Program-made: the position numbers and the translations under genes
Shown: in pieces, positions 2,831 through 36,352 of the stretch
How positions within the stretch are numbered: position 1 is the first letter of the stretch
How the letters are laid out: every line of letters starts with the position of its first letter
The notes under the pieces: generated by a model
Databases searched by the model: none
The model's input: the letters and a program-made list of their open reading frames with translations, nothing else
What the model was told of the DNA's origin: nothing
From: Anaerocolumna aminovalerica
GTDB taxonomy: Bacteria > Bacillota > Clostridia > Lachnospirales > Lachnospiraceae
Length of the DNA stretch: 38,397 nucleotides
Reading direction: 5' to 3'
Assembly: GCF_900115365.1 (NCBI RefSeq)
Contig: NZ_FOWD01000038.1
Location: 1-38,397, forward strand

Positions 2831-2859
2831 ACTAACCTCGATTCCAGCACTTAAGCGCT
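2831..2859 (-). promoter_or_regulatory. Repeated leader hairpin plus SD, copy before ywlE
   Basis: Read on the minus strand, a 14-nt hairpin AGCGCTTAAGTGCT (5-bp stem, TTAA loop) is followed by GGAATCGAGGTTAGT and then directly by the ywlE ATG. GAGG supplies the Shine-Dalgarno. The 15-nt tail is almost identical upstream of the MOSC and nitronate-monooxygenase genes, while the stem sequence differs but still pairs. Confidence 0.7.
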
Positions 2860-2881
2860 TTTTAATGATATAGTTTAAAGC

Positions 2882-3964
2882 CTATGGCTCTGTTGCTAAA
2901 CCATTATCATGAACTTTAATTATATGGTATCCTGCTGCTTTTAATAATCTATTCATAATAGCTTGTCCCAGTTGTTTGCTTTCAAAGCTTTCCGTATAGA
3001 TATATTCAGCTCCTTCGTCATCAAACTCTCTTAGAATCTGAAATAATCCACGAGCAATGGTATCTTCGTCTTTTCTTGTTCCAATACTCTTTACCATTCC
3101 CTTTGGATAACAGGACAAAGTTTCATCTGTAGAAATAATACCAACTTTAAAACCTTTTGATGTTTTTTCCGCCGCATACTTATTGATTGCTTGAATAACC
3201 GCCTCAGTAGTACCTTCAAGTATGGTTAAATCACCCTTTGGTGCATAATGTTTATATTTCATTCCCGGCGCTTTCGGAATAATACCTGTATCCCCTTTCC
3301 TTGCAAGCACCGCTTTATCAAAATTCACAGGACCAACTACAGCTTCTAACATAGAGGCAGTAATGTATCCCGGCCTGAGAATAGTTGGAACCTCACCTGT
3401 TACATCCACAATAGTAGATTCTAATCCTATATCCACCATACCGCCGTCTACAATCATTTCAATTCTGCCATCCATATCTTCTATTACATGTTCAGCCATT
3501 GTTGGACTTGGTCTTCCTGATATGTTGGCACTGGGAGCTGCAATATATACTCCCGATTTACGAATCAATTCATAAGCAATGGGATGGGAAGGTATTCGAA
3601 TAGCTACTGTTTCTAATCCACCGGTGGTATTATAGGGAACCCTATCACTTTTATTAAAAATCATAGTCAGGGGCCCCGGCCAAAATGCATTAGCCAATTT
3701 CATACCTGCTTCCGGGCAATCCGCCGTTAACTCTTTTAATGATCCCATATGGGCAATATGAAGAATAAGAGGATTATCAGAAGGTCTCCCTTTGGCCGCA
3801 TATATCTTCCCAGAAGCCTCAGAATTTAATCCGTCAGCACCTAATCCATATACGGTTTCTGTGGGAAATGCAACTAATCCGCCTTTTCTAAGAATATCCG
3901 ATGCTTCCTTTAATTCATCTTCATTAAAATTATTTTTATCTAATTTTATTATTTTTGTTTTCAT
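2882..3964 (-). CDS. tsaC: L-threonylcarbamoyladenylate synthase (Sua5/YwlC type)
   Basis: The enzyme makes threonylcarbamoyl-AMP from threonine, bicarbonate and ATP for the t6A37 tRNA modification. The N-terminal YrdC domain shows GGLVAFPTETVYGLG, the KGRPSDNPL motif, and TTGGLETVAIRIPSHP followed by SANISGRPSPT. A C-terminal Sua5 domain (from about PGMKYKHYAPKG) brings it to about 360 residues, normal for the two-domain type. An ATG 66 nt further upstream is in frame, but I chose 3964 because GGAG sits five bases before it and the added N-terminus is unlike the family. It heads the tsaC-ywlE-rpiB cluster. Confidence 0.93.
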   Translation of the reverse strand: MKTKIIKLDKNNFNEDELKEASDILRKGGLVAFPTETVYGLGADGLNSEASGKIYAAKGRPSDNPLILHIAHMGSLKELTADCPEAGMKLANAFWPGPLTMIFNKSDRVPYNTTGGLETVAIRIPSHPIAYELIRKSGVYIAAPSANISGRPSPTMAEHVIEDMDGRIEMIVDGGMVDIGLESTIVDVTGEVPTILRPGYITASMLEAVVGPVNFDKAVLARKGDTGIIPKAPGMKYKHYAPKGDLTILEGTTEAVIQAINKYAAEKTSKGFKVGIISTDETLSCYPKGMVKSIGTRKDEDTIARGLFQILREFDDEGAEYIYTESFESKQLGQAIMNRLLKAAGYHIIKVHDNGLATEP

Positions 3965-4057
3965 TGTAACTCCATTCTGGGTAATTCCAGCCCTGTAAAT
4001 CAAAAACATTATAGCACTATATTTATTCATTTTCCATAACTAATTATGATTATAAGC

Positions 4058-4096
4058 AAAAATGTCATTCTGAGCCCTTTTATCCTCAGAATGACA
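4058..4096 (-). terminator. Intrinsic terminator after cwlD
   Basis: A perfect 12-bp stem, TGTCATTCTGAG with CTCAGAATGACA, has a 10-nt loop. On the minus strand it is followed by TTTTTG. It separates the cwlD/GH18 genes from tsaC. CTTTTATTAT on the other side gives weaker activity on the plus strand. Confidence 0.88.
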
Positions 4097-4148
4097 CTTT
4101 TATTATATTTCTTTCATAGTTATGGATTTTTTAATAGTTTCGTTATCT

Positions 4149-4889
4149 CTAATGAGGGGCATCTTTCGTGGATTGATTTATGTAACTTAGTATTCCAAGA
4201 TGTATGGACCATGCCAGTTTCTCTTGATAAGTTTCATCCAGCAGCAAAGCTGCCTCTGTATAATTGGATAAAAAACCGCATTCAATAATAATCAGAGGGC
4301 GATTACTTTTCTTTAGCATATAATAATTGCTGTTTGATTTTGCAAGCCGTTTATTACCGTCATTTAGACTTTTCTTTAATTGTTCCTGCATAAGCTCTGC
4401 AAATTCTTTCCCTTCCTCTGAATTGGAGTAGTAGAATACCTGAGCACCTTTTATACTTTCCTGCCCAAAACTGTTTTGATGGATACTAACAGCAACTACC
4501 GCATCACTGTTATTAATTATTTCCACCCTATTTCTTAAATCCGCAGCTTTCTTACTTGAATCACTTTCTGAGTAAAGGCCTTTGTCTTCTTCTCTTGTCA
4601 TGATAACATTAATATCATTTTGTTCTAATATGGTTTTTAGCTTTAATGAAATACTTAAGTTAATGTCCTTTTCGAGAGAATCATTTAAACCAACTTTTCC
4701 GGGATCAAATCCACCATGCCCGGGGTCTATAACAACGGTTATTCTTTTCTTATTGTCTTCCTTTAACCTTGCGGTACTATCCTGCATAACGCCTACAGAG
4801 GGCTCAGCCAGTATATAGATGGATAAGGCAGCCATAATCAGAAATACAAGGTTAAAATACTTTTTTATCTGTATTTTCTTTGGATTCAT
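4149..4889 (-). CDS. cwlD: N-acetylmuramoyl-L-alanine amidase, CwlD-like
   Basis: This is an Amidase_3 enzyme that cleaves the peptide side chain from muramic acid; CwlD does this during spore-cortex muramic-lactam formation. It has an N-terminal membrane anchor or signal (residues ~11-28) and VVIDPGHGGFDPG with His58. Glu73 is the likely second zinc ligand, His137 lies in SIHQNS, and catalytic Glu203 lies in IIIECGFLSN. At 246 residues it is CwlD-sized and has no extra binding domain. It lies 66 nt downstream of the GH18 gene on the same strand. The CwlD label rather than a generic amidase rests on length and the sporulation-type neighbour. Confidence 0.82.
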   Translation of the reverse strand: MNPKKIQIKKYFNLVFLIMAALSIYILAEPSVGVMQDSTARLKEDNKKRITVVIDPGHGGFDPGKVGLNDSLEKDINLSISLKLKTILEQNDINVIMTREEDKGLYSESDSSKKAADLRNRVEIINNSDAVVAVSIHQNSFGQESIKGAQVFYYSNSEEGKEFAELMQEQLKKSLNDGNKRLAKSNSNYYMLKKSNRPLIIIECGFLSNYTEAALLLDETYQEKLAWSIHLGILSYINQSTKDAPH

Positions 4890-4955
4890 ATGCTAATCTC
4901 ATTTCCTGTCATCATTATATTCTATGAAAGAAATGAAAACCCTATGATTCCTGAT

Positions 4956-6659
4956 TTAATTTATATACTTTTGAATTATATTCCAAACGGATTCTTTTTC
5001 AAGGCCCAGCTTCCAACCTGCTATTCCTGCCAAATCTGCCTGATCAATTAATTTTAATTTTGCCTCTATGGATTCATCTTCTTCCAGCCAGATTTTATAA
5101 GTAGCATCATCTATCTGATATTCACCATAATACTGTCCTGCTTCTTTATCCCATACCGGTTCCACATCGTTACGTTCAAGAGCATCTATTCCGGAAGACA
5201 TTCCTAAAGCTTCTGAAGTTACCTTAATCTCCCCATTTTCCTGAACTTCCTTCCACAGTCTCGTATAGAATGGAATTCCCATAATAATTCTTTCCTTTGG
5301 AACCATTTCCAAGGTACGTTTAATAGCCTGCTCTACAAAGCCTATGGAAGAAACAGAACCGCTTACCTCGGAATTTCCATGATGTTCATCGTATGCCATT
5401 ATAATTACATAGTCTGCCACAATACCTTGTTCACCTCTGTCGTAGTAAGCAGAATATTCCGCAGGTACGTAATTGTCTATAGATAAAACGATATCGTTGT
5501 TTCTGCACTTTACGGATAACTCCCGAATAAATTGAATATAATATCCTCCTGCTTCCGCGCTGATTCTTTCAAAATCAATATTTATACCATCTATATTATA
5601 TTTAATTACTTCTGCAAGTAACTCGTTAATCAGCTTTTCTCTCTTTGATGTATAAGAAAGAACTTCCAGCATATTTACTTCCGGATTAAAATCATCAACT
5701 AAAGCCCATACTTCTATTCCTTTGGAGTGGGCACGTTCCACATAAGTTTCACTAGCCAGTGAACTTATGTTTCCATCATTATTTTCCACTTTAAACCAGG
5801 TTGGAGAAACTGTGGTTACGCTTTTTGTTTTTTCAAGCAAATTCAAAAGTCCATTATTGGCATCCCGATTAGTAACCTGGTGCCATACCAAATTAATAGC
5901 ACCTTTTTTGGAAATATGAGTATATTCAGGAGCAACATAATCACTTTCTATGGTTTCATAGTAAGATTCTCTTATGTTTTTATTTTTAACATAACCAATA
6001 ATACCATCCTCTGTCATAACCTTACTAAAACCTTTTTTAACTACCTCACTGGTATCTACATATAAAAGCTTCGTATCCGCTTCTAATTGTTTTAATATCT
6101 TGCTCTTAATACTAGGTTCTATCCTTAATTGAGTGGTTTTTTTCACCGTTGTATACAAATAATCACCGGTTTTATATTCTATCACTGCTCGATTTGGTTC
6201 CTCATAGAATTCATAATCCAGATCGGTATATTGCTTTACAAAATCAATGGAAACATAAACTTGTTCCCCTTCTGTTTTCACAATTATTTTGTCCGCTTCT
6301 TTTTTGTTTTTATTGACAAAATATTCTCTGCTTCCCACTTCTGCTTTTATTACTTCTGTTGGAGTGGTATAACTTAATATGTTTTCAAAACCATCCCAGT
6401 GAAATCTTTTATTAAAGGTTTTAACTACGGTATCATAATCTAAATATATCTGGCCATCTGCAAGAAGTCCCTTTTTATCATATATTTTATCCTGCAGAAT
6501 AATCAGAACTTCTTTATCACTTACTTTATAATATTCATCTAAAGCTATAACCTCTTTACTTGGTGTCAGAGATTTCATAACAGATGCAATAATTATAATA
6601 AAAATTATTAATAAAGCAATACTGGTACCAATAATAGCTTGCTTTGTCTTTCTCTCCAT
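4956..6659 (-). CDS. Membrane-anchored GH18 glycosidase with SH3 and stalk domains
   Basis: The 567-residue protein starts with a membrane anchor (residues ~10-28). A copper-amine-oxidase-N-like stalk region (~45-165), a bacterial SH3 domain (~170-232) and a GH18 barrel (~255-567) follow. DGINIDFE at 357-364 is the GH18 signature, with catalytic acid Glu364, and MAYDEHHGNSEVSG follows. GH18 proteins of this build act on peptidoglycan or spore cortex (YaaH/SleL/YdhD group) rather than chitin. I chose the ATG at 6659 because GAGGAGG lies six bases upstream; the ATG 15 nt earlier would overlap that site. The adjacent cwlD supports a cell-wall role. Confidence 0.85.
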   Translation of the reverse strand: MERKTKQAIIGTSIALLIIFIIIIASVMKSLTPSKEVIALDEYYKVSDKEVLIILQDKIYDKKGLLADGQIYLDYDTVVKTFNKRFHWDGFENILSYTTPTEVIKAEVGSREYFVNKNKKEADKIIVKTEGEQVYVSIDFVKQYTDLDYEFYEEPNRAVIEYKTGDYLYTTVKKTTQLRIEPSIKSKILKQLEADTKLLYVDTSEVVKKGFSKVMTEDGIIGYVKNKNIRESYYETIESDYVAPEYTHISKKGAINLVWHQVTNRDANNGLLNLLEKTKSVTTVSPTWFKVENNDGNISSLASETYVERAHSKGIEVWALVDDFNPEVNMLEVLSYTSKREKLINELLAEVIKYNIDGINIDFERISAEAGGYYIQFIRELSVKCRNNDIVLSIDNYVPAEYSAYYDRGEQGIVADYVIIMAYDEHHGNSEVSGSVSSIGFVEQAIKRTLEMVPKERIIMGIPFYTRLWKEVQENGEIKVTSEALGMSSGIDALERNDVEPVWDKEAGQYYGEYQIDDATYKIWLEEDESIEAKLKLIDQADLAGIAGWKLGLEKESVWNIIQKYIN

Positions 6660-6714
6660 GGTTGTCCTCCTCATATACTCTCTTTCATCCTTCCAATCAT
6701 ATTACTGCAAAGAG

Positions 6715-6745
6715 GCATCTTAAATAATAGGTTAAGATGCTTTTT
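6715..6745. terminator. Hairpin with T tract upstream of the GH18 gene
   Basis: GCATCTTAA and TTAAGATGC form a perfect 9-bp stem with an 8-nt loop, followed on the plus strand by TTTTTCTTC. No plus-strand gene ends here, so its job is unclear. It could be a weak minus-strand attenuator or a remnant. It lies in a 729-nt gene-free stretch (6660-7388). Confidence 0.5.
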
Positions 6746-6879
6746 CTTCAGGCTTTGCTTCTACAAAAACTGTTTTGCACGTTCTGTTTTTCGCTTCAAC
6801 TCATTATAACATTTATTATTCTTGTCGTCATTACTAAAATCGACTTTTTCTTAATTAATACTACATATTATTTATATAG

Positions 6880-6928
6880 AAAAAGCAGGAGCAACCTATT
6901 TATATAAATAATATTGCCCTGCCTTTTT
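6880..6928 (-). terminator. Bidirectional terminator in the long intergenic stretch
   Basis: On the minus strand GGCAGGGCAA pairs with TTGCTCCTGC (one mismatch, one bulge) around an AT-rich palindromic loop, then TTTTTCT. On the plus strand the same stem is followed by TTTTTTATTT. It lies about 460 nt after the kinase operon stop, leaving room for a long 3' UTR or an unannotated RNA in 6930-7388. Confidence 0.65.
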
Positions 6929-7141
6929 TATTTAAGTTAATTATAAAATGTTTTTGCAATTAAAAAATCAAAATTTTATCGGTGATTATGAATTGTAAAA
7001 TTTCTTGTAAATTTAGTAAAAGGCCAACATTAGCATTGAGGATACGAATTGTAAAGCCTAATACTGTATTTATTCCATGATTCTTCTATATAATATTATT
7101 TCCCTTTCACGTGGTACTTATATTCCTCTTTATCTTTAGAT

Positions 7142-7167
7142 AATACTTAAAAGATCTTTTAAGTATT
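7142..7167. repeat. Perfect 26-bp palindrome
   Basis: AATACTTAAAAGA is followed immediately by its exact reverse complement with no loop. A loop-free perfect dyad fits a dimeric regulator site better than a terminator. The surrounding 6932-7388 stretch is AT-rich, and I see no convincing gene in it. Confidence 0.8.
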
Positions 7168-7388
7168 TGAAACGGATTGACATATTCAAAGTAACCGCTG
7201 TAGTCAAAATCTTATTCATTACTTTTTCTTTTATAATCCTGCAAGCAGTAAGAACCGGCAATATGAATTTATATCTTACTCAAAGGTGCATTATAATATT
7301 CATTAATTGACTTAATTGGGATAAGGAAGGTTAGATTGTGATATGCTATACCATTTTTTAAATCTATATGACCGGCTTACAACTATAC

Positions 7389-8030
7389 TTATATAATTTT
7401 CTGAAAGAAATGAATGGTTTCCTCAGACAAAGAAAAGGGATTAGGTTCATAGGGAATCCTCCATAACTGCTTTCGGAAATCCCTGCCCGCTTGCTTTATC
7501 CCCTGCTTCTCCACAAAGGGAATCATATATTGCCACTCATCACTTTGATTTATATGACAAGTATGCTCATAAAATCTTTCTAACTCATGTTGTTTCCATG
7601 GTGTCAGGCTGCTAACTACAATTTTTTTGTCACAACGGAGGAATTCATGCTTATTTTTCGTAAAATCCATTCCCAGATCCAATATGATGCAATCAAAAGA
7701 ACCACCTATAATCTCAGACAGATCAGCAGGTTTTACACTTTTGTAATAGGTCACCCGGTGAATAAGGAAAAAGCCCTCTTCCTCTGAACCTTCTTTTGCA
7801 CTACAGTATGTTCCTTCGTATAGATGCTGCATATGTTTTATATCTTTTCGCTGACCGTACTCCACATAAGCGACTTTTTTACCCAACCACTCACTTAGAT
7901 AGCTGGCAACCATAATACTCAAGTGGGTAACCCCTGCTCCATGATGAGTCCCTATTAATCCTATCGTTAATTTCCCGGGTTGATTTTCCTTTCGGGATAT
8001 TTTTTTTAGCAGAATGGGTACTTTCTTCAT
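7389..8030 (-). CDS. MinD/ParA-like protein with degenerate P-loop
   Basis: The 213-residue protein resembles the MinD/ParA/CpaE fold. After a short basic N-terminus comes LTIGLIGTHHGAGVTHLS (residues 21-38), where the canonical KGGxGKT is replaced by HHGAGVT, so the signature lysines are missing. A strand ending DCIILDLG stands in for the second acidic motif. Its C-terminal RIPYEPNPF recurs as RIPYEPDPF at the end of the upstream kinase, indicating homology between this protein and the kinase's C-terminal domain. It follows the kinase by 59 nt with TGGAGG before its ATG, so the two are probably one operon. Nucleotide binding may be lost; function is unknown. Confidence 0.65.
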   Translation of the reverse strand: MKKVPILLKKISRKENQPGKLTIGLIGTHHGAGVTHLSIMVASYLSEWLGKKVAYVEYGQRKDIKHMQHLYEGTYCSAKEGSEEEGFFLIHRVTYYKSVKPADLSEIIGGSFDCIILDLGMDFTKNKHEFLRCDKKIVVSSLTPWKQHELERFYEHTCHINQSDEWQYMIPFVEKQGIKQAGRDFRKQLWRIPYEPNPFSLSEETIHFFQKII

Positions 8031-8089
8031 ATGTCCTCCAGGTATAAAATACGGTAATTTAGGTTATTTACACTGATCTATATAAAAAT

Positions 8090-9442
8090 CTATTCAATCA
8101 ATTGATCTAAGAATTGACTTAGAGTTTTTCCGATCTGCCCCACAAACGGATCCGGTTCATAAGGAATCCTGCTGCAAGTCAGCTTTCCCATATATTTTAG
8201 AATTTCACGAAATCTGCTTCCGTCTACAAAATTAAACAAATATCTTACACTTTTCTTTTCACACACCAACTTTAATGCCTTTTCTGTTTCCTCTAATTCC
8301 CACTCCTTCCCTCCGCAAACCAGTAACGGAATATCGGAATTCAAAAAATCCTCATAATTGTCCTGATTTAATTTTCCATAGTCTAATATTTTTACCGGAT
8401 ATGCCTCCAATTGAGCAGGCAGGGGAACACGACAGCCGGGAAGCATATAACAGTTATGTACAATATAAGCACCGTCTTTAATCTTATTTTGTTTATATCT
8501 GTTTAATATAGAAGAAACATGGTCAGAATTATTTTTTTCCATATAGAGTGCCTTCATAGACTTTTGAGAATAATAATTGACAATTAAAAATCCAAGATGG
8601 GTTGTTCCAATCCGCTCCTGTGAGCCTGCAATTGCTATGGTAATAGACTTTCTTGATTCATCCTTTACCTTTACATTTTTTTGATGCAAATCTAATAATT
8701 TCTTCTTTAATGCGAATACACAGGAGTAACGTAACATAGGATAATACTGAAGACACTGCTTCATAATTCCTTGCAAAGGAGCAGAGCAATTTCTCAACCT
8801 ATTCTTAACACTCCTCTTTTGTTCGGTAACATTATAACTTTTGCCGGTTACCATAAAATAGATTAAAGTTCCTATTCCATATACATCCGTTCTTTCATCC
8901 GGTGTATGTCCACTATATAATTCCGGAGCAGCAAATCCTTTTGTACCAAGAGAATATTTGCGTTTACCTGTTTCATTCTTGTAACTGGAGGCTCCAAAAT
9001 CAATTAGCTTTACTTGATTCTCAGAAATAATAATATTATCCGGTTTTAAGTCCAAATGCAAAACGGGATTGTGAGTGGAATAAAGATATTGCAATAAATC
9101 GCAAAGTTGAATGGTAAATTCAATGATTGTTTTTTCCGGAATGTGCTCAGATTGATTTCTCAGCACTTTCAAAGACCGCCCTTCAATATATTCCTCAATA
9201 ATATATGAATATTCAGCATCTTCCTCAAAATCAAAGATGGTGGGAATACAAGAGTGGCATAGATTTTTTAGAATATGAGCTTCATTCAGTAATTGTGAAT
9301 GTAAAATATGATCCTTACGGATGCGCTTAATAGCTCTTAGGGTATTGAGTTTAGTGTGTAAGCATAAAAAAACATCCGCAGTTCCTCCATGCCCCAACAC
9401 CTTTATAATTTGGTATTTATGAAACCATATCTGGTTTGTCAT
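8090..9442 (-). CDS. Ser/Thr protein kinase fused to a degenerate MinD/ParA-like domain
   Basis: The N-terminal ~255 residues form a Hanks-type kinase. They show GHGGTADV (17-24), catalytic Lys39 in RAIKRI, HLDLKPDN with Asp131, DFG at 148-150, GTKGFAAPEL around 166-175, and DVYGIGTLIYFMVTG. The Arg of HRD is Leu, so it is a non-RD kinase. There is no membrane segment and no PASTA repeats, so it is not PrkC. Residues ~266-450 are a MinD-like domain opening with ITIAIAGSQERIGTTHLG, again without P-loop lysines, and ending in RIPYEPDPF like the next gene. Kinase activity looks intact. The target is unknown, though the downstream homologue is an obvious candidate partner. Confidence 0.82.
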   Translation of the reverse strand: MTNQIWFHKYQIIKVLGHGGTADVFLCLHTKLNTLRAIKRIRKDHILHSQLLNEAHILKNLCHSCIPTIFDFEEDAEYSYIIEEYIEGRSLKVLRNQSEHIPEKTIIEFTIQLCDLLQYLYSTHNPVLHLDLKPDNIIISENQVKLIDFGASSYKNETGKRKYSLGTKGFAAPELYSGHTPDERTDVYGIGTLIYFMVTGKSYNVTEQKRSVKNRLRNCSAPLQGIMKQCLQYYPMLRYSCVFALKKKLLDLHQKNVKVKDESRKSITIAIAGSQERIGTTHLGFLIVNYYSQKSMKALYMEKNNSDHVSSILNRYKQNKIKDGAYIVHNCYMLPGCRVPLPAQLEAYPVKILDYGKLNQDNYEDFLNSDIPLLVCGGKEWELEETEKALKLVCEKKSVRYLFNFVDGSRFREILKYMGKLTCSRIPYEPDPFVGQIGKTLSQFLDQLIE

Positions 9443-9509
9443 CCTCTCCTTTCCTGTTAGATATAATCAAATGCAAAAGAAAATGGTAAATCAAGTAAAT
9501 CCTATAAAT

Positions 9510-9538
9510 ATTATATCCAATTACCTATTTTTTCTCAA
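9510..9538 (-). promoter_or_regulatory. Sigma-A-type promoter of the kinase operon
   Basis: On the minus strand TTGAGA and TATAAT are separated by exactly 17 nt, about 68 nt before the kinase ATG. The -10 is perfect consensus. Confidence 0.7.
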
Positions 9539-19962: not shown

Positions 19963-20466
19963 TTATTTCAGATGTACCGGCTGACCACACTCGGATGCTT
20001 CGCCTTTTAAAATATCCAGTCCATGCCCTAATCCGTCTATAATAACTTCCAGATTTTCTTTTACTCCTTTAGGACTTCCGGGAAGATTGATAATCAAGGT
20101 GCCTTTACGAATAGCTGCAATACCACGGCTTAACATGGCTCGCTTTGTAATCTGAAGGCTATAATAACGCATAGCCTCTCCTATACCGGGAACCAGCCGT
20201 TCCGCTACAGCGTAAGTGGCCTCCGGAGTAACATCCCTGTTAGAGAATCCGGTACCTCCGGTTGTAAGCAATAAATCCACTTTATAATTATCACACCAGT
20301 CCATCATCTTTTGTTCCAGCTTTTGCTGTTCGTCCGGCAATATTTCATATTCTGTCACTTGCCAGCCTTGTTTTTCTATAATCTCCCGTATAACGTCACC
20401 GCTGGTATCCACACGTTGTCCGGCAGAACCCTTGTCACTGGCTGTTATGATACCAACTCGAATCAT
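19963..20466 (-). CDS. mogA: Molybdopterin adenylyltransferase, MogA/MoaB type
   Basis: This enzyme adenylylates molybdopterin before metal insertion by MoeA. The 167-residue MoCF domain shows IITASDKGSAGQRVDTSG, LLTTGGTGFSNRDVTPEATYAV and INLPGSPKGVKENLEVI, all canonical. Its ATG overlaps the stop of the MOSC gene (ATGA) with AAGGGG upstream, so translation is coupled. It is the last gene of the cofactor operon. Whether it is strictly MogA or MoaB cannot be told from sequence alone. Confidence 0.9.
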   Translation of the reverse strand: MIRVGIITASDKGSAGQRVDTSGDVIREIIEKQGWQVTEYEILPDEQQKLEQKMMDWCDNYKVDLLLTTGGTGFSNRDVTPEATYAVAERLVPGIGEAMRYYSLQITKRAMLSRGIAAIRKGTLIINLPGSPKGVKENLEVIIDGLGHGLDILKGEASECGQPVHLK

Positions 20467-20912
20467 TTTCCCCTTCCCCCTTCAGAAAGAATAACCATTT
20501 CATCTCCTTCCGAAATAGTTCCTCCTTGTTTTACTACTGCAAACACTCCTTCTCTGGGCATAATACAATCTCCAACTCTTTTATAAATCTCACAGTGAGA
20601 ATGGCACTCTTTACCAATTTGGGTCATCTCCAGAATCACATCATTACATTGAAATACCGTCCCTATAGGAAGGTTCTTAAAATCAAATCCTTCTACAATC
20701 AGATTTTCTCCAAATGCACCATCTTCCACTTCAGCTCCACGCTGATTAAATGCATCTATTTTATCCTTTGATATGAGACTAACCTGTCTATGCCAGTTAC
20801 CTGCATGGGCATCCTTTTCTATTCCATAGTTTTCAATAAATGTTCCGCTATGGACATTTACTTTTTGAGTACCTTTTTTTTCACTGATACAAACCGCTAT
20901 AACTTTTCCCAT
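20463..20912 (-). CDS. MOSC-domain protein
   Basis: The 149-residue stand-alone MOSC domain has the characteristic start VIAVCISEKKGTQK, RQVSLISKDKIDAF, GENLIVEGFDFKNLPIGT and GKECHSHCEIYK, containing the conserved Cys. MOSC domains handle sulfur or bind molybdenum cofactor (as in the C-terminal part of Moco sulfurase), and stand-alone forms are common beside mogA and moaC in anaerobes. It is coupled to mogA. Its start codon directly follows a copy of the repeated hairpin leader, despite lying inside the operon, which hints at separate translational control. Confidence 0.88.
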   Translation of the reverse strand: MGKVIAVCISEKKGTQKVNVHSGTFIENYGIEKDAHAGNWHRQVSLISKDKIDAFNQRGAEVEDGAFGENLIVEGFDFKNLPIGTVFQCNDVILEMTQIGKECHSHCEIYKRVGDCIMPREGVFAVVKQGGTISEGDEMVILSEGGRGK

Positions 20913-20941
20913 ATTAACCTCGATTCCGGTGCTTTAGCACC
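20913..20941 (-). promoter_or_regulatory. Repeated leader hairpin plus SD, copy before the MOSC gene
   Basis: On the minus strand GGTGCTAAAGCACC (5-bp stem, TAAA loop) is followed by GGAATCGAGGTTAAT and then the ATG. About 30 nt further upstream also resemble the copy before the nitronate monooxygenase gene (GCACAA...ACT..TC...TTATTA). Confidence 0.75.
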
Positions 20942-20980
20942 ACTATAATAATGAAAGTGACTTGTGCTCCAACACAAATT

Positions 20981-21008
20981 GCTACCTCAATTCCGGACCT
21001 TTAACGCC
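20981..21008 (-). repeat. Degenerate fourth copy of the leader repeat
   Basis: On the minus strand GGCGTTAAAGGTCC is followed by GGAATTGAGGTAGC, matching the leader at most positions. The stem is broken and no start codon follows. It lies 68 nt upstream of the intact MOSC copy in the moaA-MOSC gap, which looks like a tandem duplication of the element. Confidence 0.6.
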
Positions 21009-21021
21009 TTTTGTTTACTAT

Positions 21022-25043: not shown

Positions 25044-25175
25044 GCTCCAGCAGCCTCTATCTAAATACTCCTTTTCAAACACGGAAGGCTGAGGCGTTTC
25101 CACTTCAACCCAAAAGCAAATCCATTGCTTTGGCGAAGCATCCTAGAATTCTCCTTAGATGCTTTTGCTCGGAGC
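25044..25175 (-). ncRNA. Probable Moco/Tuco riboswitch
   Basis: This minus-strand RNA has an outer stem GCTCCGAGC/GCTGGAGC and a hairpin AAGCATC/GATGCTT at 25136-25164. A second hairpin CCAAAGCAA/TTGCTTTTGG lies at 25110-25133, followed by a conserved-looking AGTGGAAACGCCTCAGCCTTCCG run. Position before molybdopterin genes, the multistem fold and the GGAAACGCCTC...CCTTCCG run fit my memory of the MOCO RNA motif (Rfam RF01055). That RNA responds to molybdenum or tungsten cofactor. The family assignment is from memory and needs a covariance-model search. Confidence 0.72.
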
Positions 25176-25202
25176 TTATTATTAAATTGTATTGGTTAAT
25201 AA

Positions 25203-28944: not shown

Positions 28945-28958
28945 TCTCTAACTCCTTT

Positions 28959-29309: not shown

Positions 29310-29319
29310 GGTGGCAGAT

Positions 29320-30063: not shown

Positions 30064-30091
30064 TAATGAAGGGGACACTTTTATAATATAA

Positions 30092-30129
30092 AACAGATTA
30101 TCTACTATAAGTGGATAATAGAAATCTGC
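30092..30129 (+). terminator. Hairpin after tatC
   Basis: CAGATT...AATCTG encloses TCTA...TAGA and a short loop, about 30 nt after the tatC stop. It lacks a T tract, so termination is uncertain. Confidence 0.45.
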
Positions 30130-30140
30130 TTCTTAAAGAC

Positions 30141-30373
30141 AAAACCATGATGCATTGGGTATGCACCATGGTTTTTATTTATGAGTTTATTTTAAATCAT
30201 TTACACCATTCTGTTTTTAATATAGCATATTTAAAAGTACTAAAAAAATTTGAAGAGTAGTTGCTTTTCCCACTACTTTTAAAAAAACCATGATGCACTT
30301 GGTATGCACCACGGTTTTTATATATAAAACTATATTTTAAACCTATTACACCATTCTTCTTTCAATATGGCAT
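30141..30373. repeat. Tandem pair of ~90-nt hairpin-bearing elements
   Basis: Unit 1 (30141-30228) and unit 2 (30284-30373) each start with AAAACCATGATGCA, then GGTATGCACCA[TC]GGTTTTTAT. Each continues with shared ATTTTAAA, TTACACCATTCT and AATAT[AG]GCAT blocks. Each hairpin is flanked by A and T runs and can end transcripts in both directions. A small extra hairpin AGTAGT/ACTACT lies between them at 30256-30277. The rest of 30374-30639 shows no gene. Confidence 0.75.
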
Positions 30374-30639
30374 TTCGTAAGTATCAATCCATATAGGTTC
30401 ACCATTAGTTTTAAAATAGATATTTTGCAAAAGTAAACCCTCCCGTCTCATAAGTTAGCGTTCATCAATTCCAAGTAGGTCTTTCTTGGGATTACACATG
30501 GCTGCAAACTATGCTTTCTATTTTAATCTCCTTCGTTATCTTATAGGAGAATGTTCCATCTATATGACAACTAAACCACTTCTTAATATATTATGAACAA
30601 GCCCTGCCTATGACAGTCTCACTTTTTACATAAGAAACA

Positions 30640-31434
30640 TCACTTATTTAATACTGCTTCCTTTAAAAAGAAATACCCATTATTAATTGTAACAGCAACA
30701 GCTTTTGAAGAAACAGTTGCACCTGATATAGCATCCATATCAGTGACATTTACTGGCTCTCCTGCCGGTTCTTCTTCACTTCCACTCACCAATAGATTAG
30801 CTTTTTGCAGTTTAGCCTTTGCCTGATCCTCCGGTGATAAATCTGTAAGGGGTGTGGATAGCTTTTCACCATTTTTAGAACTTGCCAGCAAACCTGCCGC
30901 ATATAAAGTACGCATTGCATTAGCTTCCGGTGAAGTATCCCCTGGATTCCATTCTGATGAACTATAATCTTCACCAGCTAATTCTGTTGTTGCAGCAGCT
31001 TCTCCTGATGTATTTACCTTTCCGGTAGTTGGTGATACCACTTCTAAATCTGCAACTTTAATAGGTGCAGTAATATCATGGAACTGGCTTAAAAATGCAT
31101 CTTCTGTTACTTTGCTGCCTATACCATCTGTCTCTCCCTGTGATACAATTTCTAAAGATAAAATATTTTCTCCGGTCTTATCAAAGGTTACTGCTGTTTC
31201 TATATCACTTGCAAATCCTTTGGCTGTTCCATACACCACATAACTTCCGTCCTCCAATGTATGCAATTCTTTCACCTGATATGTATCCCCACTCATTCCG
31301 GTTATATCTACCGGTGTGCCGCTGGCAGCAACAACTGCCTGATCTTTAATTGTTCTCATGCTAAAAATTATCCCCAAGGATAAAACACACATTGCACCTA
31401 AAGCAATACCTTGACCATATCTTCTTCTACGCAT
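30640..31434 (-). CDS. Exported FMN-binding domain protein
   Basis: The ~264-residue protein starts with a basic RRRRYGQG stretch and one membrane segment (~8-27). Inside the extracytoplasmic part DAISGATVSSKAV carries the [ST]GAT-type motif to which FMN is attached covalently through Thr by ApbE in the RnfG/NqrC family. The middle includes QGETDGIGSKVTEDAF, also typical of FMN_bind domains. I use the ATG at 31434 because AGGAG precedes it; an ATG 27 nt upstream overlaps that site. It is probably an extracytoplasmic flavin electron carrier. No apbE is in the window. Confidence 0.88.
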   Translation of the reverse strand: MRRRRYGQGIALGAMCVLSLGIIFSMRTIKDQAVVAASGTPVDITGMSGDTYQVKELHTLEDGSYVVYGTAKGFASDIETAVTFDKTGENILSLEIVSQGETDGIGSKVTEDAFLSQFHDITAPIKVADLEVVSPTTGKVNTSGEAAATTELAGEDYSSSEWNPGDTSPEANAMRTLYAAGLLASSKNGEKLSTPLTDLSPEDQAKAKLQKANLLVSGSEEEPAGEPVNVTDMDAISGATVSSKAVAVTINNGYFFLKEAVLNK

Positions 31435-31530
31435 AATCTCATCTCCTATACATTTTGTCATGATTTAGCAAAGTTATCTGCCACCGTCTAATTTGTAAAA
31501 ATCCATTTATTAAGAAAATCTCTCTTTAAA

Positions 31531-31559
31531 ATGATACCAAATTGTACCGTACATGTAAA
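31531..31559 (-). promoter_or_regulatory. Promoter of the FMN-binding protein gene
   Basis: On the minus strand TTTACA and TATCAT are 17 nt apart, about 97 nt before the ATG. Confidence 0.6.
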
Positions 31560-31635
31560 GATTATTTGTTAAACATTTATCAGTTTCTTTCTAGTTATAT
31601 GAACTGGTTTCTTTCTTGATTTCTTATAAAAAAAT

Positions 31636-31670
31636 GGCCTTATATCATATATTTTTAAGTATTTAAGGCC
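31636..31670 (-). terminator. Hairpin in the divergent intergenic region
   Basis: GGCCTTA and TAAGGCC form a perfect 7-bp stem, followed on the minus strand by ATTTTTTTAT. No minus-strand gene feeds it, so it may shield the FMN-binding gene from read-through. The rest of 31671-31946 contains small dyads (ACCGCTTAGCGGT, GTGAAG/CTTCAC) in what is probably the leader of the MobB-like gene. Confidence 0.55.
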
Positions 31671-31946
31671 TTTATGGTAATTATCAGTCTATTATCCTTT
31701 CATCCATATTGTATCTTAATCCTGTAAATGCTATAATATATACAATTTTAATAGACTAAAAAGTCTTAAGATTGAAAATTATTTATCAATCCCCTCCTAA
31801 CAGGATATCCCTATGAGGTCAAATAATTTGCGAATAATATCTTTTTCTTCATGCTTATAAACATGAACCGCTTAGCGGTATTCTAAAATAGGTGAAGACT
31901 ATTTTCCTTCACATTTTACATACTTACTGAAAGATTGGAGCCATAT

Positions 31947-32522
31947 ATGAATACAGAGAAAGCAGATCTTCTGCAAGCAAAACAGATGATACTAATTGGA
32001 GCAACAGGTCGTAATAGTGGAAAAACAACACTTGCTCTCCGGATTATTGATGAATACAAAGATAAAATGCCTATTATCGCATTCAAACTAATTACCGTAC
32101 ATGATAAAGGGGATATATGTCCCAGAGGGGGTAAAGGATGCGGTATATGCAAAGGGTTAAAAGAATGCTTTGATATAACAGAGGAAGTTGGCGAAGGTAC
32201 AAAAGATACTATGTTATTAAAAAAAGCAGGAGCCAGGCATGTTTATCTTATCCGTGCTTTTAAAGAAAATATAAGGGAAGCATTAGAAGAAGCATTGAAA
32301 TTGGTACCAAAAGACACTCTGGTTATCTGTGAATCTAACAGTGCACGTCTTGTAGCAGAGCCTGCCTGCTTTATTATGATTGAAAGCAGTACATCTTCTA
32401 GTATAAAACCAAGTGCACAGGCGGTTTTAGAGTATGCAGATTTTACTCTAAAACAAGAAGAAGATTCATTTGCTAATTTTGCGAAAGTGCATCTGCATCA
32501 AATAATAAGTAAATGTATGTAA
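31947..32522 (+). CDS. MobB-like P-loop protein with a four-Cys insert
   Basis: The ~191-residue protein has Walker A GATGRNSGKTT (18-28), close to the MobB form, and a strand ending DTLVICESNSARL. Between them a CPRGGKGCGICKGLKEC insert places cysteines at 58, 65, 68 and 74, unlike classical MobB, suggesting an Fe-S cluster or zinc. MobB assists nucleotide attachment to molybdopterin, but no MobA is visible here, and YdhV-type enzymes use cofactor without a nucleotide. The gene may therefore be a regulator, a metal or cofactor chaperone, or act elsewhere. I start at the ATG preceded by GGAG; the TTG 12 nt earlier overlaps the GGAG. Confidence 0.7.
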   Translation: MNTEKADLLQAKQMILIGATGRNSGKTTLALRIIDEYKDKMPIIAFKLITVHDKGDICPRGGKGCGICKGLKECFDITEEVGEGTKDTMLLKKAGARHVYLIRAFKENIREALEEALKLVPKDTLVICESNSARLVAEPACFIMIESSTSSSIKPSAQAVLEYADFTLKQEEDSFANFAKVHLHQIISKCM

Positions 32523-32529
32523 TTTCTAT

Positions 32530-32604
32530 TATATGGCGAACACCGGCACGAATAACCTCCGTCTTTATTTCGGCTTCTTGGTTATTCGTGCGAAGTCCCA
32601 TATA
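32530..32604. terminator. Large hairpin between convergent genes
   Basis: TATATGG/CCATATA encloses a perfect 12-bp stem GCACGAATAACC/GGTTATTCGTGC with a further CCG/CGG at the tip. The internal loop is asymmetric (9 and 6 nt). No T tract follows on either strand, so it may be a structured RNA or a 3'-end stabiliser rather than a simple intrinsic terminator. Confidence 0.6.
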
Positions 32605-32649
32605 TCAGGTATGAACCTTATTGAATTACTATAATAAATATTATATTTG

Positions 32650-33600
32650 TCAGAACACCGATAATAATCTTCTTGTTGCCAATTCAGAGTCTACTCTAAT
32701 GCAATATAGAATTTCGTCATGAGAATAATCTGAAATAAATCTTTCGTCCGTCTTAATCATGCCGCGGAACTCCTGACTTTCATATTCCACAGCAGCACGT
32801 ATCATACGATACTCACCGATAGATGGATTTTCTGCAATTAGCATTGCTAAGGGATCATGAACTACACATCCATCCTGAATTCCTGTTGAATCATAATTAA
32901 ACTTAAAATAAAACTTTAATGCTGATTTAATAAAATCGACAATATCTCTGTTTTCCTCAGCACAGTATTTTTCTAATGTAGAGATATCCTGTCCTGATAA
33001 ATAAGTTTCTGTTGTAACATCAAGACCCACCACTGTCATGTGGAAACCTGCACGGAATACTATGTCTGCTGCCCTTGCATCACCATAGATATTGGCTTCT
33101 GCATAAGGATTTACATTCCCTGGTTTATTTATAGTTCCTCCCATTATAACAAGATTTTTAACTTTATAAGGCAGTCTGGGATCTTTTACTAAGGCTAAAG
33201 CAATATTGGTTAACCGCCCTAAGGCTACAATAGTTAAATCCCCTTGAAGTTCATTTGCTTTACGTATAATAAAATCCGGAGCACTCTCCTCCAGTAATTT
33301 TTGTTCTGACTTTGGCAATTCTACATTACCAATACCATTGTCTCCGTGAATATGGGTTGGAATGGGGCCATATTCACCCTCCAGATTCTCATTTGCACCA
33401 AGTGCCACTGGTATTTCGTAACCGCATTTGGATAGCTTAATTAAACGCAGCGTATTTTCTGCTGCCTGCCTAGAAGATGTATTACCGTATACAGTTGTAA
33501 AACCTTCCACATGTAAACCTTTACTTTTCAGCGCGTACAAAATTGCAATAGAATCATCAATTCCGGTATCACAATCAATTAATATATGTTTCATTTTCAT
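32650..33600 (-). CDS. Inosine-uridine-preferring nucleoside hydrolase family protein
   Basis: This cytoplasmic enzyme hydrolyses ribonucleosides to base and ribose. DCDTGIDDS at residues 9-17 is the calcium-binding signature, with HGDNGIGNVELP, VALGRLTNIALAL and NPYAEANIYGDARAADIVF following. At 316 residues it has the usual length. AAAGGAAG precedes two adjacent in-frame ATGs (33600, 33594), and I keep the first. Base preference cannot be read from the sequence. It stands alone behind its own promoter. Confidence 0.9.
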   Translation of the reverse strand: MKMKHILIDCDTGIDDSIAILYALKSKGLHVEGFTTVYGNTSSRQAAENTLRLIKLSKCGYEIPVALGANENLEGEYGPIPTHIHGDNGIGNVELPKSEQKLLEESAPDFIIRKANELQGDLTIVALGRLTNIALALVKDPRLPYKVKNLVIMGGTINKPGNVNPYAEANIYGDARAADIVFRAGFHMTVVGLDVTTETYLSGQDISTLEKYCAEENRDIVDFIKSALKFYFKFNYDSTGIQDGCVVHDPLAMLIAENPSIGEYRMIRAAVEYESQEFRGMIKTDERFISDYSHDEILYCIRVDSELATRRLLSVF

Positions 33601-33746
33601 TATCTTCCTTTCATTTACACAAATGTTTAAAAGCTTTTATATTTCTGGCAGGATGGAAGGTTCTGCTTTTAATGGTAACTAATTTGCAGAATCTATGATA
33701 AATAACTAAAGATCGTTTTAATAATGCAGTTTATTGTCCCATTATT

Positions 33747-33774
33747 ATTTTACCATTAATTACCCTTCAGTCAA
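33747..33774 (-). promoter_or_regulatory. Likely promoter of the nucleoside hydrolase gene
   Basis: On the minus strand TTGACT and TAAAAT are 16 nt apart, about 147 nt upstream of the ATG. The 33601-33898 stretch shows nothing else that I can support. Confidence 0.5.
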
Positions 33775-33898
33775 CCCTTCCCTTTTATCCTACCCTTTCA
33801 TAAATGATTTGGTAATACCATGATACCAGCTTGCTTATTCTTTTATGTCTATCGCTTGAGAGTCTGTTGCTTTACCACATCCTAATATTTCTTCGCAA

Positions 33899-33955
33899 CA
33901 AAAAAAGCCACTACACAACCCAGATAAGGTATCCCCTCCATGTCATGTAATGGCT
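33899..33955 (-). terminator. Terminator of the rpsF-ssb-rpsR operon
   Basis: On the minus strand AGCCATTACA pairs with TGTAGTGGCT (10 bp including one T-G), followed by a run of seven or more T. It lies about 80 nt after the rpsR stop. Confidence 0.85.
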
Positions 33956-34034
33956 ATTTCATTTTTTCTACAAGTTGTGTACAAGCCGTGTAAACCGACT
34001 TCCACAATCTCAGGAACCCTAGTAAAATAAGGGC

Positions 34035-34310
34035 TTAATCTAAAGTGTAAGGCATTAAAGCGATATGTCTTGCACGCTTAATAGCTACTGTTAAAGCTCT
34101 TTGATGCTTAGCACAGTTACCGGTAATTCTTCTAGGAAGAATCTTACCTCTTTCAGATACATATCTTTTTAATTTATTCACATCTTTATAGTCAATTCCT
34201 GTATGATTCTTATCTGCGCAGAATACACAAACTTTCTTTCTTCTGCGAGGTGTTCTTCTTCTCATTGGGGAATCGGCTCTATCGTTTCTATCATTTTTAT
34301 TAAATGCCAT
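34035..34310 (-). CDS. rpsR: 30S ribosomal protein S18
   Basis: The 91-residue protein has KVCVFC and [24 protein letters not shown], the S18 core. Four potential zinc ligands (CxxC plus CxxH) are present, so this is the Cys-containing (C+) form. The basic N-terminus [10 protein letters not shown] is typical. It is the last gene of the operon, 52 nt after ssb. Confidence 0.97.
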
Positions 34311-34362
34311 TGCACCTAACCTCCTTATCCGATGATGATTATTACATATATTATTCTAATGC

Positions 34363-34797
34363 TTAATTAAATGGTAATTCCTCGTCAATACCATCTGGTA
34401 TATTCATGAATCCATCACCGATCGCTTCTGTTGGAGCTGGTCTTGATGTATTCTGATAACCGGATTCACTACTAGCGGACTTGCTTTCTGCAAATTCTGT
34501 TTCTTCTACAACAACTTCCGTTGTGTAAACCTTCTGACCTTCTTTGTTGGTATAACTACCAGTTTGAATTCTTCCGGTTATGGCAATTTTAGTTCCTTGT
34601 TTCAGATATTTTTCAGCAAATTCTGCAGTTTTTCCAAAGGAAACACAACTGATAAAATCAGCGTCCTGTTCACCCTGTCTTTTAAATCTACGGTCTACAG
34701 CTAATGTGAATCTTGCTATTGCTAAAGAATTCTCTCCCTGAGAGTATCTAACTTCCGGGTCTCTTGTAAGACGGCCCATTAAAATGACTTTATTCAT
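34363..34797 (-). CDS. ssb: Single-stranded DNA-binding protein
   Basis: The 144-residue SSB has an OB fold starting MNKVILMGRLTRDPEVRYS, with FTLAVDRRFKRQGEQDADFI. A short disordered linker leads to the acidic DEELPFN tip that binds partner proteins. It lies between rpsF and rpsR in the usual order. Confidence 0.97.
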   Translation of the reverse strand: MNKVILMGRLTRDPEVRYSQGENSLAIARFTLAVDRRFKRQGEQDADFISCVSFGKTAEFAEKYLKQGTKIAITGRIQTGSYTNKEGQKVYTTEVVVEETEFAESKSASSESGYQNTSRPAPTEAIGDGFMNIPDGIDEELPFN

Positions 34798-34818
34798 ATT
34801 AAGGAATACCTCCTTCTA

Positions 34819-35106
34819 CTATGCGTCCTGTCTAATGCATAAGAATCTGATAACATTTTCCATGATACGAATTCTATCTTCGACTTCGCCTGGGCATGTT
34901 GAATCAGCATCGAATTGGATGAAATAATAGAAGCCTTCTTTCATTTTCTGAATTTCGTAAGCTAATCTTTTCTTACCCCATTCATCAACGTTAGTAATTG
35001 TACCGCCAAATCTAGTAATAAGTTCTTTAACGGCATCTACTGTTGCTGTTCTGGCTTCATCCTCGATTTTTGCATTTACAACTAAGGCTAATTCATATTT
35101 GTTCAT
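34819..35106 (-). CDS. rpsF: 30S ribosomal protein S6
   Basis: The 95-residue protein (MNKYELALVVNAKIEDEARTA...) has the S6 core FGGTITNVDEWGKKRLAYEI and FYYFIQFDA. The start at 35106 is set by AAAGGAGGTG nine bases upstream. A longer in-frame reading to 35217 would run through the promoter and leader, and its N-terminus is unlike S6. Confidence 0.96.
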   Translation of the reverse strand: MNKYELALVVNAKIEDEARTATVDAVKELITRFGGTITNVDEWGKKRLAYEIQKMKEGFYYFIQFDADSTCPGEVEDRIRIMENVIRFLCIRQDA

Positions 35107-35134
35107 AGTTGTTTGCACCTCCTTTTGGTCTCTG

Positions 35135-35154
35135 GCCCTTTCTTTGGAAAGAGC
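35135..35154 (-). promoter_or_regulatory. Leader hairpin just upstream of the rpsF SD
   Basis: On the minus strand GCTCTTTC/GAAAGGGC forms 8 bp with a CAAA loop, ending about 16 nt before the AGGAGGTG. S6:S18 feedback on rpsF leaders is known in many bacteria, but I do not see the CCG bulge of that motif, so the role is open. Confidence 0.4.
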
Positions 35155-35188
35155 AAGGAAAATTTTGTATAACATATCACGAGTATAA

Positions 35189-35217
35189 ATTTTATCACAG
35201 TTTGCCAAGCAATGCAA
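35189..35217 (-). promoter_or_regulatory. Promoter of the rpsF operon
   Basis: On the minus strand TTGCAT and TAAAAT are 17 nt apart, giving a leader of about 75 nt before rpsF. Confidence 0.68.
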
Positions 35218-35270
35218 GTAATTTTTATTTTTTTATCCATATTCTTAAAGTTTCGTTATTTTTTATAAAA

Positions 35271-36323
35271 TTATCCAAAATAATCAGCTAAAACTTCCTT
35301 TACCGTTCTTATTCTTGTTTCCTTATAAGCATTGGCACCACAGAATAATAATGCTTCATCTAAATTACCTTTTGCAGCGTTAGTAAGGGCATCCGTAATG
35401 CAATAAGGCGTAGTGGCGGGATTACATGGTATAATACAATTATGACATTTTCTGACCGGAATCCGTCCCAATGCTGCACGTTCCATAAACTTATTCCTGA
35501 TAGCACGTCCCGGCATCCCTACCGGACTTTTTACTATAATAATGTCTTCTTCTTTACAATTAATATAAGCTTCTTTATATTTTATATCTGCATCGCATTC
35601 TTTTGTTGTAACGAATTTGGTAGCCACCTGAATACCTTCTGCTCCTAAGGACAGGTAATGTTCCATATCTGCCTTATTTTCAATGCCGCCTGCTATGATA
35701 ACCGGAATCTCTTTTTCATATTTTGCTTCGTAACCTTTTGTAAGCTCTATGATCTTTTCTATTTCTTTGTCGTAATCAGGAAGGCTAATATCTTCTAATT
35801 CCTCCGGTTTAAATCCTAAATGTCCTCCCGCTTTCGGACCTTCTATTATAATGGCATCCGGTACTGTATTATCTTTTTTATCCCACATTTTAAATATAAC
35901 ATTAGCAGCTTTTAAAGAAGATACAATAGGCACCAGCTTGGTTTGGCTCTCTTTTGCAATTGACGGCAGTTCCATAGGCAAACCTGCCCCTGATATAATA
36001 AGGTCAATTCCGCTTTTTATTGCTTCTTTTACATAGGAAGCATAATTCTGTGTAGCCACCATAATATTGACACCCAATACTCCTTTCGGTGCCAGCTTTC
36101 TTGCCATTTTTATATGTTCTCCAATCATTCTTAAATTAGCTTTTAACGGATTTACATCAAAATCCGGTTCTGTAAAACCTATTTGGGCTGTAGAAATCAC
36201 CCCTATACCGCCTTGAGCTGACACGGCTCCTGCCAGGGAACTCAGGCTGATTCCTACCCCCATGCCCCCTTGAATGACAGGTAGTTTTGCAATTAAATTT
36301 CCGATTTTAAGTGGTTTGTACAT
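35271..36323 (-). CDS. Nitronate monooxygenase / FabK-like flavoprotein with Cys motif
   Basis: The 350-residue protein has the NMO/2-nitropropane dioxygenase barrel: VIQGGMGVGISLSSLAGAVS (16-35), IIEGPKAGGHLGF and PVIIAGGIENKADMEHYLSLGAEGIQVATKF for FMN binding. Near the C-terminus CHNCIIPCNPATTPYC places cysteines at 293, 296, 300 and 308, which typical NMO and FabK proteins do not need. This looks like a metal or Fe-S site and marks a clostridial subgroup. FabK-type enoyl-ACP reductase is the alternative; there are no fab genes nearby. The ATG directly follows a repeated hairpin leader. Confidence 0.85.
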   Translation of the reverse strand: MYKPLKIGNLIAKLPVIQGGMGVGISLSSLAGAVSAQGGIGVISTAQIGFTEPDFDVNPLKANLRMIGEHIKMARKLAPKGVLGVNIMVATQNYASYVKEAIKSGIDLIISGAGLPMELPSIAKESQTKLVPIVSSLKAANVIFKMWDKKDNTVPDAIIIEGPKAGGHLGFKPEELEDISLPDYDKEIEKIIELTKGYEAKYEKEIPVIIAGGIENKADMEHYLSLGAEGIQVATKFVTTKECDADIKYKEAYINCKEEDIIIVKSPVGMPGRAIRNKFMERAALGRIPVRKCHNCIIPCNPATTPYCITDALTNAAKGNLDEALLFCGANAYKETRIRTVKEVLADYFG

Positions 36324-36352
36324 ATTAACCTCGATTCCGGCGCTTTAACGCC
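36324..36352 (-). promoter_or_regulatory. Repeated leader hairpin plus SD, copy before the NMO-like gene
   Basis: On the minus strand GGCGTTAAAGCGCC (5 bp with a terminal T-G pair, TAAA loop) is followed by GGAATCGAGGTTAAT and the ATG. The 15-nt tail is identical to the MOSC copy. Upstream similarity to that copy continues for about 30 nt. Confidence 0.75.

Follow-up and report, generated by a model that had tools for sequence, protein, structure and literature searches.

Three minus-strand genes in a 38,397-nucleotide (nt) stretch of Anaerocolumna aminovalerica DNA (contig NZ_FOWD01000038.1; the whole stretch is referred to here as the window) share a short structured leader directly in front of their start codons. 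The open reading frames (ORFs), for which we take over the labels ywlE, MOSC and NMO-like from the initial annotation of the window, each follow an exact copy of the 13-nt tail GGAATCGAGGTTA, which includes the Shine–Dalgarno (SD) sequence, with two bases between tail and ATG, and the tails are preceded by the 14-nt hairpins AGCGCTTAAGTGCT, GGTGCTAAAGCACC and GGCGTTAAAGCGCC, respectively (Table 1). The initial annotation had described a repeated hairpin-plus-SD leader abutting three start codons, and tails and hairpins were found where it placed them; the differing but complementary stem pairs that it reported at positions 1-14, 3-12 and 5-10 were also recovered (the copies are listed there in varying order), together with a G.U wobble at pair 4-11 of the ywlE hairpin that it had not mentioned. 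Loose matches to the tail (three mismatches) are not enriched within the window (13 found against 9.5 expected); the signal lies in the exact copies. We conclude that the leaders are, very probably, worn copies of a non-autonomous mobile element, about 90 nt long, whose targets are translation-initiation regions and which re-establishes the ribosome-binding site in them.

Table 1. Parts of the three element copies in the window.
Feature	Position	Strand	Remark
3' tail GGAATCGAGGTTA, including SD of ORF 2372-2830 (ywlE)	2833..2845	minus	
Hairpin 3, ywlE copy	2846..2859	minus	Hairpins 1 and 2 not recognisable; whole copy 31.1 bits
3' tail, including SD of ORF 20463-20912 (MOSC gene)	20915..20927	minus	
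Hairpin 3 GGTGCTAAAGCACC, MOSC copy	20928..20941	minus	
Linker TTTCATTATTATAGT, MOSC copy	20942..20956	minus	
Hairpin 2, MOSC copy	20957..20982	minus	Hairpin 1 missing
Probable remains of an older tandem copy (worn hairpin 3 and GGAATTGAGGTA), MOSC leader	20983..21010	minus	
3' tail, including SD of ORF 35271-36323 (NMO-like gene)	36326..36338	minus	
Hairpin 3 GGCGTTAAAGCGCC, NMO copy	36339..36352	minus	
Linker TGTCCGTTATTAAAA, NMO copy	36353..36367	minus	
Hairpin 2 remnant, NMO copy	36368..36393	minus	
Hairpin 1 remnant, NMO copy	36394..36420	minus	CTGAACC retained

The intact unit in Anaerocolumna lies in the sense orientation with respect to the host gene and comprises, downstream of a native SD-TA, hairpin 1 (GGTTGAAAA..TTTTCAACC), hairpin 2 (AATTTGTGC..GCACAAATT), a linker, hairpin 3 (GGYGC TAAA GCRCC) and the SD tail, after which come two bases and the ATG of the gene (NN-ATG). 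The unit of 29 nt, hairpin plus tail, that had first been proposed is therefore too short, the actual one having three hairpins and approximately 90 nt. Head-to-tail arrays in the incomplete genome of a relative (G014) show a unit of roughly 93-97 nt, with hairpin 1 GGTTGAAAAA..TTTTTCAACC, hairpin 2 GCAATTTGTGC..GCACAAATYGC, linker TATTAWAA, hairpin 3 GGYGCTAAAGCRCC and the same tail. All three window copies match our covariance model of the element, R1 (66.2, 50.7 and 31.1 bits, the ywlE copy being the weakest), and the resemblance of the MOSC and NMO copies further upstream, also noted initially, consists of the hairpin 2 remnant and TTATTA linker present in both. Comparison by eye of the ends GGTTGAAAA... 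and ...GAGGTTA shows no terminal inverted repeats; TA flanks both sides of most Anaerocolumna copies, while the right end is GATT without TA in genome G346.

Neither R1 nor the tail pattern includes the ATG. The exact tail occurs 32 times in the 4.62-Mb genome to which the window belongs (G000), against once for a reversed-pattern control, and, among the best 150 or fewer candidates scored per genome, R1 gave 142 matches at E ≤ 1 in G000 and 98 in G014. Most of the tail copies read have ATG two bases downstream, and many have additional hairpins ahead of the tail. The initial annotation had held that a conserved function would be unlikely if the three copies were the only ones in the genome, which is clearly not so. 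A chance likeness of the three leaders, with which the unenriched loose tail matches in the window would agree, is refuted by the 32 exact tails against one reversed, and we give it practically no credence. From 99 R1 rows we removed a duplicate (L013:2598, the same as L114), and two weak matches judged false (L124:214 and L151:802), leaving 96 distinct copies (84 from G000 and 12 from G014), 32 of which have the exact tail.

The placement of these 96 copies is highly specific: the element is followed by NN-ATG in 79, NN-TTG in five, NN-GTG in two and some other context in ten. For 85/96, a start codon at −2 to +7 nt opens an ORF of 60 or more amino acids, and four further copies run into another copy; the remaining seven comprise five with NN-ATG and a short ORF (L147, L097, L018, L118 and L128), L151, with an ATG one base nearer and a short ORF, and L120, with no start codon. 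Random positions in the same loci gave NN-ATG with an ORF in 0.36% of cases, and 6.4% by the looser test (−2 to +7 nt). Upstream of the copies there is usually an SD-like sequence and TA; the left flank ends in TA in 64 of 86 preselected copies (64/85 minus one false match), and in 26 of 30 copies of a young subfamily described below, compared with 15 of 50 native starts. The copy at metK in G014 lies behind a SAM (S-adenosylmethionine) riboswitch and that at valS in G000 behind an apparent T-box terminator (read by eye). At pheT in G014 (L156), an array of short repeats (AAGCATGTCATACTAAG and similar) lies upstream and is apparently unrelated to the element.

Among the other Anaerocolumna genomes (congeners), R1 matches at E ≤ 1 numbered 39 in G011, 28 in G013 and 10 in G001, the remaining ten having 0-9. 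We read 24 congener loci: the 14 strongest all have NN-ATG, and of the ten weaker ones, on the fitting strand, eight have ATG within 5 nt, L076 is a tandem repeat and L089 is doubtful. A young subfamily of nearly identical copies occupies 36 places (16 in G013, four in G004 and 16 in G011), the same whether hairpin 1 alone or hairpins 1 and 2 were used in the search; 30 of these were read, and NN-ATG adjoins 29, the other meeting another repeat. As nearly identical young copies are already at NN-ATG, this placement does not arise from the decay of misplaced copies. At one young locus, L219, the ORF after NN-ATG is only three codons long.

The family extends beyond the genus. A broader model, R2, matched at least 13 of 397 Lachnospiraceae genomes, in 12 genera, at E ≤ 1e-4, and at 23 loci from 11 non-Anaerocolumna genomes, where the start codon was scored irrespective of ORF length, ATG lies within 6 nt in 20, TTG takes its place in one, one is a tandem array (G266) and one has neither (G327). 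The full layout, with diverged copies, is present in nine of these 11 genomes, and in 15 of the 23 loci the element itself starts TA|NN-(T/G/A)TG (by eye). Among 391 Clostridia genomes only the own genome matched; this survey, like that of Lachnospiraceae, took the best ten candidates per genome with strict filters and would overlook diverged subfamilies. Elsewhere, the exact hairpin-3/tail sequence turned up only in the metagenome-assembled genome of an uncultured Anaerocolumna (seven stretches). G002 has two tails, both lacking the hairpin, while G026 and G350, of another genus, have a single exact tail match each at one orthologous site (L047 and L046), where GCTCCGGAATCGAGGTTA stands two bases ahead of ATG with at most a possible short stem; this may be a chance match. 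Plasmids gave no match to one young copy used as query; viral contigs gave no exact hairpin-3/tail match and one match to hairpin 1 without the rest of the element. A phage collection yielded 12 'Bacteriophage sp.' records from human faeces at 76-82% identity; the five opened are marked UNVERIFIED, their copies reach ATG within 8 nt, and such records may be bacterial DNA. These five (L305-L309; MT837141, MT838294, MT836618, MT837919 and MT837311) contain a further subfamily, AGATTGAAAAATAAAATTTTTCAATCG..., leading to ATG.

The element is short, multi-copy, structured and non-coding and carries no enzyme of its own. Its own TTG or GTG occupies the former place of the start codon, and a leader peptide was considered; the ORF from this codon stops before the tail in 27 of 43 G000 copies (preselected by regular expression as starting GGTTG or a close variant), so that no conserved coding is claimed. 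The young subfamily has an open leader ORF, which is not a general feature: in the 30 young copies this ORF ends within the tail in 26 and overlaps the ATG in two.

Six intact units fold better than their shuffles (z −1.9 to −5.0), whereas the three window copies are not clearly more stable than theirs (z −1.1, +0.3 and −0.2). We followed wear in 53 G000 rows chosen by model score (including the false L124:214), a selection that favours copies with a good tail where the rest is worn and so exaggerates retention. In the least worn third, identity was 0.80 for hairpins 1 and 2, 0.87 for hairpin 3 and 0.88 for the tail; in the most worn third hairpins 1 and 2 had fallen to 0.47, with hairpin 3 still at 0.84 and the tail at 0.88. 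With copies anchored on the tail, hairpin 3 has all five of its pairs intact in 58 of 84 G000 copies, against a mean of 39.5 and a maximum of 48 in 2000 shuffles (one more row was left out of this count), and pair 3-12 is C-G in 45, T-A in 22 and T-G in six. The covariation claimed initially is real, although such a test is inflated by the kinship of the copies. Both pairing and wear would fit copies that keep a functional SD downstream of a small hairpin.

Stable folding of the intact units, covariation in hairpin 3 and the survival of hairpin 3 and tail in worn copies would equally be expected of a conserved cis-regulatory RNA, either riboswitch-like or a protein-bound leader, common to a regulon, and the initial annotation had indeed offered a shared translational switch as one possibility. 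The downstream genes give no support to this: 73 downstream proteins match 106 Pfam families (E ≤ 1e-5), none shared by more than three members, with no theme or association with a single pathway. The element is also missing from most of the orthologous gene starts read in congeners, its subfamilies are lineage-specific, hairpins 1 and 2 decay and the window copies do not fold clearly better than their shuffles. We therefore consider such an RNA improbable. Nor did any Rfam 15 family reach its gathering score on an element examined; in three sets of loci (16, one and eight) the sole match over the cut-off was a SAM riboswitch (L155:100-198), upstream of the element.

Mobility was examined at the starts of 11 G000 genes, whose orthologues were read in up to six congeners (two genomes for fumA); the starts of accA in G011, apt in G001, leuB in G002 and L103 in G003 were poorly located. 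The element is present in G000 and absent from G014 at accA, rarA, pheT and the L103 aminotransferase gene. At ywlE, hairpin 3 and tail are found in G014 as well and in none of five other species; at the NMO gene, for which no G014 orthologue was listed, the element is in none of five other species. At apt, differing subfamilies occupy the same spot in G000 and G014 and in G011, with none in G012, G003 or G002. Seven of eight G013/G004 pairs consist of an occupied and an empty site that differ by one unit of 88-89 nt between SD-TA and NN-ATG; when the flanks are joined at TA|NN-ATG they match the empty site, ungapped, at 27, 25, 28, 23, 25, 27 and 27 of 30 positions, better than at every shift tried.

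These fixed-ended units of about 90 nt, together with the empty sites and tandem arrays, and flanks that appear unrelated between copies, are hard to reconcile with ribosome-binding sites spread by recombination or gene conversion between leaders and no dedicated mobile element. That some copies have only hairpin 3 and tail in common would suit such an exchange, to which we attach very little probability. The mobile ribosome-binding-site cassette of the initial annotation is, by contrast, supported: its subfamilies are dispersed, empty sites and tandem arrays occur, and copies lie exactly between SD and ATG. At the level of sequence comparison, then, the anatomy, copy number and position of the element are established, as are its empty sites, its subfamilies and the retention of hairpin 3 and SD in worn copies.

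The mobile element that we favour would insert itself, in the same orientation as the gene, into the gap that separates the native SD from the start codon, directly behind TA. Its 3' end is an SD sequence at suitable spacing, so that the gene would retain a ribosome-binding site and not be switched off, and, as this SD re-creates the target, head-to-tail arrays become possible. The tail would presumably be the SD actually used, kept usable with the help of hairpin 3, and translation of a short ORF, begun at the element's own TTG or GTG, may now depend on the native SD that was displaced. The element would be moved by an enzyme acting in trans, perhaps through a circular or single-stranded intermediate; this is suggested by the junction of the ends where copies abut in arrays, GAGGTTA|GGTTGAAA, which is similar to the target GGAGGTTA|NNATGAAA.

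Several observations weigh against this interpretation. Our searches identified no mobilising enzyme, no longer, autonomous form with the same left end was found in the three genomes of the young subfamily, and no movement of the element was observed. Predicted folds do not always expose the SD of intact units: in four of the six centroid folds it is free, whereas it pairs weakly in that of L022 and is paired in that of L278. Many copies consist of hairpin 3 and tail alone and could represent a separate short element. The eighth G013/G004 pair, L242, does not fit cleanly (20/30); in five comparisons of G011 loci with G013 and G004 (L227 twice, L229 twice and L223; 18-20/30) the sites are too diverged to be informative, and the site orthologous to L234 in G011 already carries an element. 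Which state of a site is ancestral is inferred. The occupied G011 orthologue (L245) has tandem copies of another repeat type, GTGTGAAAT..ATTTCACAC ... CCACATCTGAAGCAGATGTGG ... AATGGGAG, before an element akin to the young subfamily.

Compatible with this interpretation, as a narrower version of it, is a relic of an IS200/IS605 (HUH Y1) transposon, comparable to miniature inverted-repeat transposable elements (MITEs) or REP sequences and moved by a Y1 transposase. The palindromes near both ends, the lack of terminal inverted repeats or clear target duplication and the position behind a short motif all point in this direction, and the own genome contains pieces of Y1 transposase. Against it, the Y1 transposase family PF01797 gave no match at E ≤ 0.001 in eight of 15 Anaerocolumna genomes, among them the single-contig genomes G002, G003, G011 and G012 (some of the others are incomplete), and G011 holds 16 young copies; a lost or very divergent enzyme might account for this. 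We regard such a relic as possible but doubtful. In G000 the Y1 transposase matches, 17 in number, mostly fall at contig ends (C7, C13, C24, C28, C33, C40, C43, C50, C55, C56, C69, C72, C73 and C81), and an IS200-like element probably breaks this assembly.

The open-licence papers that our searches turned up do not describe the element. Its copies form a real and abundant family of probable mobile elements dedicated to the interval between SD and start codon. Mobile elements usually limit the damage they cause by choosing tolerant landing sites or by being spliced out; this family lands in one of a gene's most sensitive gaps and seems to pay its way by bringing the missing part. It could change the translation of more than 100 genes per genome, it is a natural source of portable bacterial leaders, it suggests the existence of an enzyme capable of recognising ribosome-binding sites in DNA (or RNA), and it may re-explain the catalogued RNA motif TD-2. 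More speculatively, with somewhat less than even confidence, we propose a class of cassettes for which the translation-initiation region is the recombination site: a dedicated recombinase would insert a cassette, circular or single-stranded and imitating SD-TA|NN-NTG where its ends meet, into the SD-start gap of almost any gene, genes would gain interchangeable 5' leaders, and some catalogued RNAs, such as TD-2, would be members of the class on the wrong strand.

Elsewhere in the window, the only Rfam 15 match, away from the element copies, is a Moco (molybdenum cofactor) riboswitch at 25052-25186 on the minus strand (82.1 bits), upstream of a run of minus-strand genes that includes the MOSC gene with its element copy and that, by eye, resemble molybdopterin genes. 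ORF 5-871 starts with many MPGT/MPGTT repeats and encodes a low-complexity repeat protein.

Among the closest known systems is TD-2 (Rfam RF03162, clan CL00124), in which we take TD to stand for Treponema denticola; its reverse complement has the same order and shape of hairpins as the element. Full-length TD-2 matches (1-98/98, E ≤ 0.1) occur in six element-bearing Lachnospiraceae genomes, where none in the 15 genomes examined reaches the gathering score (best 39.0 against 48.7 bits); at the same E value there are none in five element-bearing Anaerocolumna genomes, four R2-free genomes and 14 controls. The reverse complement of the element itself scores below threshold (L282 31.6 bits, L175 24.2 bits). 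On the opposite strand, 17 of 20 TD-2 matches read reach, at −2 to +29 nt, a start codon that opens an ORF of 60 amino acids or more, by a loose and uncontrolled test, and in the 13 pairs in which TD-2 and R2 places overlap the strands are opposite (by eye). In phages and plasmids the TD-2 consensus gave no match, and viral contigs contained no TD-2-like stem. TD-2 differs from the element in being listed as a small RNA on the other strand and in a model that stops before the SD; kinship of the two is nevertheless suggested. Neither TD-1 nor TD-2 is named in the text of PMC2864571 (Weinberg 2010).

The BOX, RUP and SPRITE repeats of pneumococcus, as described in PMC3049150, are short, structured, multi-copy and mutually nested, and are thought to be non-autonomous and parasitic; in form, copy number and the nesting of its copies the element resembles them. 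According to the same account, pneumococcal repeats are enriched between convergently transcribed genes and MITEs have terminal inverted repeats and target duplications, whereas the element lies at start codons and has no inverted repeats. PMC4227781 describes IS200/IS605 elements as having hairpins near both ends, a target motif on the 5' side only and no inverted repeats, features that the element shares in its subterminal palindromes, 5' target motif and absence of inverted repeats; it differs from them in having no transposase ORF, and in the eight genomes of the genus already mentioned PF01797 is unmatched. IStrons, according to the same paper, make their insertion harmless through self-splicing, whereas the harmlessness of the element described here would stem from the replacement SD that it carries.

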